Positions 21,962-31,234 of a stretch of 64,000 nt of DNA are shown piece by piece. Location of the stretch: assembly GCF_014873705.1 (NCBI RefSeq), contig NZ_JADBDS010000001.1, positions 248,001-312,000 on the forward strand. Reading direction: 5' to 3'. The position numbers and the translations under genes were made by a program. The notes under the pieces are model-generated. The model made no database searches and was not told where the DNA came from. It saw only the letters and a list, made by a program, of their open reading frames with translations. Source of the stretch: Mycobacterium sp. OAS707 (GTDB taxonomy: Bacteria > Actinomycetota > Actinomycetes > Mycobacteriales > Mycobacteriaceae). How positions within the stretch are numbered: the first letter of the stretch is position 1; every line of letters starts with the position of its first letter.

Positions 21962-22672
21962 TCAGTGGACGGCCGAGCTTTGGTCCGCATCGGGCTTGCC
22001 CAGCCATTTCTGACGGATGCGCGGCAGGGTGCCGTCGGCCTCGAGTTCGGCCTGCGCGACGGTGATGCGGCTGAACAAGGCCTGGTCGTCGAGCGGTACC
22101 GCGATCGCGATGTTCTCGACTGAGATGCCGCGCTGGACGACCTCGACGCCGGCGATCGGCGTGACCAATTCCGTCAGCACCGGGGCGAGCTTCATGAACG
22201 CGTCGCAGTCGCCGGTGGTCAGGTCGGTCAGCGCGGTGCGGATGGTGCCGTAGTCGTAGACGCGGACCTCCGCGGCCTTGCCGTCGGCGACGAGGCGCTC
22301 GGCGATGGGCTGGCTGGTGTTGCCCTGCTGTACGCCGATGGTCAGGCCTTCGAGGTCGTCGACGGACGTGACGTTCGGCAACCGGGTGGTGTCGACGGCC
22401 AGCGACTGGCCGGAGATCAGGTAGGGCGCGACGAACTGCGCCTTGGTTTCGCGTTCGGGGGTGACGGTGGTGCCTGCGGCCACGCAGTCGTAGGCGGAGC
22501 CGAGGGCATCGAAGATGCCGTTGAAGTCAGCACCGCCATACGGGATGAATTCAACTGTGGCGCCGAGGGCTTCGGCGATCGCGGTCATCAGGTCGATATC
22601 GAGTCCGCTGTTATCCGGCATGCCGTTGAACGGTGGATCGGGAAAGGCCGCACCGACCCTCAGTGTCTCCAT
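21962..22672 (-). CDS. Solute-binding protein family 3-like protein without signal peptide
   Basis: A 236-residue protein with the fold signature of amino-acid-type ABC transporter binding proteins (SBP_bac_3). Visible parts are LRVGAAFPDPPFN, the GLDIDLMTAIAEALGATVEFIPY helix-strand, YDCVAAGTTVTPERE, FVAPYLISGQSLAV, and the lobe-two start DLEGLTIGVQQGNTS. The length equals the mature domain alone: there is no signal peptide, lipobox or membrane helix, and no in-frame start upstream that would add one. It starts 4 bases after the stop of the third cyclase-STAND gene, so it is co-transcribed with it, and no permease or ATPase gene is adjacent. It may act as a cytosolic ligand sensor; that is inference. 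Confidence 0.75.
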   Translation of the reverse strand: METLRVGAAFPDPPFNGMPDNSGLDIDLMTAIAEALGATVEFIPYGGADFNGIFDALGSAYDCVAAGTTVTPERETKAQFVAPYLISGQSLAVDTTRLPNVTSVDDLEGLTIGVQQGNTSQPIAERLVADGKAAEVRVYDYGTIRTALTDLTTGDCDAFMKLAPVLTELVTPIAGVEVVQRGISVENIAIAVPLDDQALFSRITVAQAELEADGTLPRIRQKWLGKPDADQSSAVH

Positions 22673-22676
22673 GCGT

Positions 22677-30591: not shown

Positions 30592-30631
30592 CCCCGCAGA
30601 ATGCCACAGAAGACGCAGTGTCAGGCGATGT

Positions 30632-31234
30632 TCAGCCGTAGGCGCGGATGATCTGACCGGTCATCTCGGTTTCGATGCAGTCGACGTAGTGCCCGACGAG
30701 GGTGTCCATCGGAATAGCGGACAACCCGGGAAACAGCGGAGCGTATTCGTCGACCGAATCGCTGACCATCGTCGGGCTGACGACATTGACACGGTAGCGG
30801 CCCTGCAACTCCAGTGCCGCGGACAGCACGAAGCTATGCAGCGCCCCACTCACGACACCGCCGCCGGTCACGCCCGTGGCGGGCTGGTCGGCGAACACAC
30901 CCGACGTCAACGTGAACGACCCTCCGGCGTTCACGTAGCGCTGACCGATCAGCACGAGATTGACTTGGCCGAAGAACTTCCCGCGCATGTTGTCGAGAAG
31001 TTGTTCTTCGGTGAGAGTAGCGAATTCGTCGAGCGCACCCGATGCCGCGATGCCGACAACTGCGTCCACTCCGGGCAGTTCCTGATACATCGCCTCGATC
31101 GACTCTGCAGAGGTGATGTCGACATGGATGTCGCCGGAAGTTCGCCCTGCCACCACGATTTCATGACGCTGCGCCAGCGCCGGCGCCAGCCGTCGGCCGA
31201 TGGTTCCGGAACCGCCGACGAGGACTATGCGCAT
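30632..31234 (-). CDS. Short-chain dehydrogenase/reductase
   Basis: A 200-residue NAD(P)-dependent oxidoreductase of the SDR type, on the short side. The nucleotide motif is VLVGGSGTIGRRL (TGxxxGxG-like, residues 4-16), with the AGRT basic residue suggesting NADPH, VDITS after strand 3 and GIAASGAL in the NNAG position. The catalytic Ser lies in FTLTSGVFA, but the usual Tyr-x-x-x-Lys is not seen (the region reads GVTGGGVVSGALHSFV), as in atypical SDRs. Start ATG 31234 follows AGGAGAGG. It leads the cyclase-STAND operon; its link to them is unknown. Confidence 0.8.
   Translation of the reverse strand: MRIVLVGGSGTIGRRLAPALAQRHEIVVAGRTSGDIHVDITSAESIEAMYQELPGVDAVVGIAASGALDEFATLTEEQLLDNMRGKFFGQVNLVLIGQRYVNAGGSFTLTSGVFADQPATGVTGGGVVSGALHSFVLSAALELQGRYRVNVVSPTMVSDSVDEYAPLFPGLSAIPMDTLVGHYVDCIETEMTGQIIRAYG

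Follow-up and report, generated by a model that had tools for sequence, protein, structure and literature searches.

The subject of this work is a run of five genes on the minus strand of a 64,000-nucleotide stretch of the 7.03 Mb genome of Mycobacterium sp. OAS707 (contig NZ_JADBDS010000001.1, positions 248,001 to 312,000; hereafter the window, in whose own numbering positions are given). At its core lie three paralogous cyclase-STAND genes, CYC1, CYC2 and CYC3, whose products combine an N-terminal class III cyclase domain (the head) with a STAND ATPase and a C-terminal tail. They are preceded by the gene for a short-chain dehydrogenase (SDR) and followed by one for a solute-binding protein (SBP), so that the order is SDR, CYC1, CYC2, CYC3, SBP, with intergenic gaps of 40, -4, -4 and +4 bases. 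The initial annotation had already recognized five same-strand genes, i.e. a dehydrogenase, three paralogs of ~880 residues and a binding protein, and all are borne out as minus-strand open reading frames (ORFs), but its gap list (40, -4, -4, -4, 4) contained one -4 too many, as five genes have only four gaps. The run goes beyond chance: five co-oriented ORFs have real domains and four of the five are found at the same place in other genomes. Its upstream flank is whiA/yvcK/rapZ/uvrC and its downstream flank gap/pgk/tpi; the listed ORF of gap starts too far upstream, as homologues place the start at ~21887, 74 bases past the SBP stop codon. A scan for consensus promoters yielded one weak site, with 1.6 expected. 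The features are:

27955..30591, minus strand: CYC1, class III cyclase head, NB-ARC domain and TPR-like tail, 878 aa; tail closest to genes of genomes G105 and G396
30238..30579, minus strand: codons 5-118 of the CYC1 head, a converted tract with 3 differences from CYC2 in 342 bases
25301..27958, minus strand: CYC2, architecture as in CYC1, 885 aa; tail closest to G339
27611..27952, minus strand: codons 3-116 of the CYC2 head, the converted tract that pairs with the one in CYC1
22677..25304, minus strand: CYC3, architecture as in CYC1, 875 aa; tail closest to gene 1 of G128
21962..22672, minus strand: SBP, solute-binding protein without signal peptide (SBP_bac_3), 236 aa; the older occupant of the interval between whiA and gap
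30632..31234, minus strand: SDR, short-chain dehydrogenase of 200 aa (NCBIfam PRK07578 type); a neighbour on the upstream side that is not conserved as a part

The Guanylate_cyc domain was matched in each of the three cyclase-STAND proteins (E 1e-7 to 8e-10) and NB-ARC in CYC1 (6e-8) and CYC3 (1e-8). For CYC2 NB-ARC is not listed and only weak matches to AAA_16, AAA_25 and nSTAND1 were obtained, but the alignment shows the P-loop and Walker B residues of the family in this protein as well, and its predicted model contains a helical superhelix behind the ATPase, a tail fold that may be MalT-like. The earlier description of the paralogs as cyclase, NB-ARC and helical repeats is thus correct for the cyclase of all three, for NB-ARC in CYC1 and CYC3 and for the superhelix in the CYC2 model, whereas the ATPase matches of CYC2 are weak. 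In an alignment that covers 74 genomes and 112 distinct intact copies, the metal-binding Asp residues (D14 and D57) and the transition-state Arg (R110) of the cyclase are present in 112 of 112 copies each, the transition-state Asn (N106) in 111, and the P-loop and Walker B residues K214 and D283 of the STAND ATPase again in 112 each. At position 53, 75 of the 112 copies have Lys, 34 Ser and three Asn; CYC1, CYC2 and CYC3 are among those with Ser. The position aligns with a Lys of GRESAG 4.3 and Ma1120, the residue by which class III cyclases read the base, and with an Asn of Rv1900c. As Rv1900c was solved as an adenylyl cyclase, loss of the Lys alone does not exclude ATP as substrate, but with Ser at the base-reading position the cyclase product of CYC1-3 need not be the canonical one. 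Position 60 covaries with position 53, being Cys in 70 of the 75 heads with Lys (K-type) and Ala or Val in 34 of the 34 heads with Ser (S-type), and codon 60 may shape the base pocket.

Each cyclase-STAND gene of the window is a mosaic: the three heads group together, those of CYC1 and CYC2 being near-identical, but the tails are of three different lineages. Outside the head tract CYC1 and CYC2 differ at roughly one base in three (whole-gene difference 0.315), as compared to 3 of 342 bases within it, and at four-fold sites their heads are alike at 70 of 73 positions, whereas the other parts agree at only 33-52% (NB-ARC 34/102), which is the level found between unrelated genomes (0.43-0.49). 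Tandem pairs with near-identical heads also occur elsewhere (64 of 68 four-fold sites in G128, 69 of 73 in G213), and in both genomes the first ten codons differ, so that the converted tract has a 5' edge, too. Likeness is weaker in two G394 pairs (53/69 and 50/66), and the CYC3 head is less alike to the other two (40/66 and 43/67), perhaps reflecting an older event. Trees and approximately unbiased (AU) tests were calculated with 40 of the 112 sequences, using the head as DNA and the tail as protein. In the head tree the three window genes group as one clade (SH-aLRT 79.8), but a single clade of window tails is rejected (p-AU 1.8e-71), the tails falling with G105, G339 and G128; two of these three tail partnerships are rejected by the heads (p 0.0007 and 0.0003), the third not clearly (p 0.052). 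Among the pairs listed no positive selection on tails was seen. Two simpler origins of the pattern were considered and rejected: constraint as the cause of the silent-site identity of the heads, as the between-genome mean is 0.485, and a whole-gene tandem duplication of recent date, as the remainder is saturated.

The exchange of tails can be followed at one chromosomal place. In G204 and G245 yvcK and whiA are identical, and so is the beginning (50 codons) of the cyclase gene that follows whiA, the only intact one there; past codon 50 the differences climb and the tails are unrelated (clade rejected, p 9.4e-45). Between these two genomes the SBPs are 10.4% and the gap genes 3.1% different, so that the SBP side may belong to the exchanged stretch as well. 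The opposite case, near-identical tails (synonymous divergence, dS, in the hinge 0.000) with different heads (dS 0.353), is found in G138 and G245. The G204 tail is closest to the second gene of G324, while for the head the first gene seems the closer one (51 vs 84 differences per 390 bases, summed by hand), a pattern such as unequal crossing-over in the heads would leave. This suggestion is weakened by the head data, which do not reject a grouping of G204 with the second gene of G324 (p 0.47).

Seven close copies of ~880 aa are encoded in the OAS707 genome (the triple, a pair and two singles), besides more distant and longer ones. In a scan of named genomes, from which 76 loci were kept, all relatives with >50% identity among the best 80 of 132 matches are from Mycobacterium or Mycolicibacterium, the others reaching ≤48% over part of the protein. 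Single copies are common, but 11 loci of the compared set hold at least two intact copies, and G394 has four within 17 kb, one of them on the opposite strand. Broken copies separate the intact gene(s) from the SBP gene in G128, G126, G245 and G339; in G138 the copy at this place is frame-shifted, for which a sequencing error is possible. Other genomes have thus lost copies at this spot or contain them in broken form. The third-position G+C content of the three window genes (22677-30591; 0.72-0.73) is lower than that of whiA (0.80), gap (0.89) and SBP (0.88). The paralogs had been proposed to hetero-dimerise; the recurrence of tandem copies is in line with this part of the proposal, and a copied head would fit compatible dimers. 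Two further arrangements in the OAS707 genome may be mentioned. A HAMP-linked class III cyclase of 506 aa is encoded 40 bases downstream of a single cyclase-STAND copy (locus L034, 4531-6051, minus strand), and a second tandem pair (locus L037, 7444-13113) codes for proteins of ~940 aa with 37-39% identity to CYC2, the first of which has an FTD-like start, yet is not matched by PF00211 at E ≤ 1e-3.

The SBP and SDR genes are neighbours of the cyclase genes rather than parts of a cyclase system. We surveyed 396 genomes of the genus holding Mycobacterium/Mycolicibacterium with cut-offs of E ≤ 1e-40 for the SBP and E ≤ 1e-160 for the cyclase family, scoring two cyclase candidates per genome, so that arrays are undercounted. 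The SBP is present in 124 genomes, the cyclase family in 98 and both in 38, i.e. at these cut-offs the cyclase family is missing from 86 of the 124 genomes with an SBP, and the SBP from 60 of the 98 with a cyclase. SBP neighbourhoods were compared for 57 of the 124 SBP genomes plus the window; the 58 neighbourhoods outside the window cover all 38 two-family genomes. An intact or partly broken cyclase gene adjoins the SBP gene in 16 of the 58, which together with the window gives 17 of the 38 genomes with both (including G119, whose contig ends there), often at a distance of 4-14 bases. The remaining SBP loci run whiA - SBP - gap (e.g. G194, with 15 bases between whiA and SBP) or show something else or nothing in view. 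The SBP is therefore a resident of the whiA-gap interval, where cyclase genes came and went. No SDR relative was found in the 58 SBP neighbourhoods or at any other compared locus (E ≤ 1e-5), which makes the SDR a local gene. Between whiA and SDR a small predicted secreted peptide is encoded on the opposite strand (31400-31651, plus strand); it contains three FNPQPDPPG/FNPQPEPPT-like repeats and has relatives at the same place in loci L129 (G394) and L117 (G187).

In agreement with the initial annotation, the window SBP has no signal peptide; it has no lipobox either, and its start corresponds to the mature-protein position. Among 60 distinct relatives 14 have fewer than 18 open codons upstream, and four, with 74-76% identity to the SBP, show a lipobox-like signal (L079 in G115, L081 in G246, L083 in G243 and L142 in G137). 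For three of these four there is no whiA within 12-15.5 kb (L135, L137, L142), and G243 is covered by 3.7 kb. The SBP loci of G264, G023 and G240 likewise have no whiA in view, yet were not flagged for a lipobox, and L072 and L149 were flagged, although none is visible by eye. The SBP of the whiA locus may be a signal-less, relocated derivative.

These data bear on the idea that dehydrogenase, cyclases and binding protein constitute a single ligand-sensing system. The intergenic gaps would permit a single transcript, and in 17 genomes cyclase and SBP genes lie side by side, but the distribution of the SBP, SDR and cyclase genes led us to reject such a module, which is highly improbable: the presentation of the five genes as one unit was overstated, since an SDR accompanies none of the 58 SBP neighbourhoods, and a search for a conserved five-gene neighbourhood found none, four of the genes recurring at this place and the SDR never. 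A role of the dehydrogenase is thus not supported, and the proposed function of the SBP as cytosolic sensor of the cyclases is rejected as a general rule, although those 17 genomes may have a looser link between the two. Also improbable is a function in defence, in which the tails would bind phage products and the cyclase would make an alarm nucleotide, as in Avs or Pycsar. The order effector - STAND - variable C-terminal TPR sensor is that of Avs and other NLR-like antiviral STANDs (PMC10907252), the presence of the family is patchy (98 of 396 genomes), with broken copies, and the head, which has the class III cyclase fold of PycC, gives weak matches to PycC models (E 6e-4 to 9e-4, 17 bits). 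However, PycC matches are also given by the ordinary HAMP-linked cyclase (2e-23, with another PycC model), no PycTIR or PycTM partner was found among the tested neighbours, and PADLOC matched no effector gene among the five window proteins, including the immediate neighbours SDR and SBP. Enrichment near defence genes had been raised as a check, but the flanking genes are housekeeping genes, and of ten neighbours of the other OAS707 copies the single one matched by PADLOC is itself a HAMP-linked class III cyclase. In PycC the base is read by Y50/D94/R97 or F100/R142/Q144 (PMC11224242).

Two further explanations accept the mosaic, but differ in what it means. Neutral gene conversion, by which the head would be copied merely as the most alike, first stretch of tandem genes, each protein acting solo and the sharing being without function, is possible, though on the whole doubtful. 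The head indeed has the highest amino-acid identity between genomes of all parts (0.79, as compared to 0.73 for NB-ARC and 0.46 for the C-terminus), single copies are common, and tracts also exist elsewhere in the gene: in 12 of 63 pairs from one genome at least 40 consecutive codons differ by <10%, some of these stretches lying in NB-ARC or the tail (e.g. codons 413-558 in G172), so that exchange is general and the head its commonest long tract in a small sample. Nevertheless, NB-ARC is conserved nearly as well, yet four of the five longest tracts are in heads. Moreover, the head type is uniform in 10 of the 11 multi-copy loci (shuffling expects 5.3 and gives at least 10 in 11 of 5000 cases, relatedness not being controlled), while eight of the 20 genomes with at least two loci hold mixed types. 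As improbable as a defence role is a regulatory function or a changed substrate of the S-type heads, which would then be non-adenylyl cyclases or pseudo-enzymes in need of K-type partners; the substitutions at position 53 and the accompanying changes at position 60 could be read in this way, but every metal and transition-state residue is kept, the adenylyl cyclase Rv1900c has Asn at the aligned place, and the window array is all S-type, without a K-type partner alongside.

While the initial annotation knew of no described system of this form, the mclx family (cyclase, NB-ARC, LuxR; Rv0386, Rv1358 and Rv2488c) has been described in mycobacteria, to which it is nearly confined according to the available part of its description (PMC4452763). 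Like CYC1-3 its members have an N-terminal class III cyclase domain and an NB-ARC/AAA ATPase, and mclx-type relatives in the OAS707 genome are 44% identical over the first ~570 residues. However, mclx proteins comprise ~1110-1140 aa and a C-terminal LuxR helix-turn-helix, and GerE was found in the OAS707 relatives of 1138 and 1110 aa, whereas CYC1-3 (~880 aa) have none at E ≤ 1e-3 and, though kin, are therefore not filed as mclx. Head sharing and tail exchange are not met in that part of the mclx description, nor did we find a published precedent for them in a literature that excludes most subscription journals. As compared to the transcription activator MalT, the CYC proteins have a cyclase in place of the DNA-binding output, and they differ from Avs in that the effector is a class III cyclase, that no defence neighbourhood is seen and that diversity arises by recombination of paralogs instead of a retroelement. 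STAND sensors diversified by diversity-generating retroelements also pair a diversified sensor with a STAND/effector part that stays constant (PMC10907252), but the CYC tails are mosaic and no retroelement was seen there, no search having been aimed at one.

Beyond the mosaic itself, which the data show, we consider it rather likely that the three genes encode a set of MalT/NLR-like receptors with a common cyclic-nucleotide output and exchangeable sensors. Binding of a ligand to the tail would take the ATPase out of the ADP and into the ATP state and be followed by oligomerisation, so that cyclase heads of the same or of different paralogs could meet as dimers and produce cyclic nucleotide in a burst. 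With the conserved head as its anchor, recombination would swap the tails while keeping the heads alike, and new sensors would be tried on an old output. In a more far-reaching and distinctly tentative version, the array may be a receptor repertoire built by cassette exchange, in which the constant head is copied between neighbours and, as the anchor of recombination, allows NB-ARC/TPR tails to be swapped among paralogs and across species, mixed paralogs converging on one non-canonical cyclic-nucleotide output, similar to the NLR clusters of plants and fungi.

Many mycobacterial cyclases respond to unknown signals, and if tails are swapped but the heads stay alike, ligands should be sought at the tails. 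The array would then be a natural test of many sensors feeding one messenger, and the family would provide a bacterial case of the evolution of a constant effector with variable sensors as in NLR clusters, driven by recombination and not by a retroelement.
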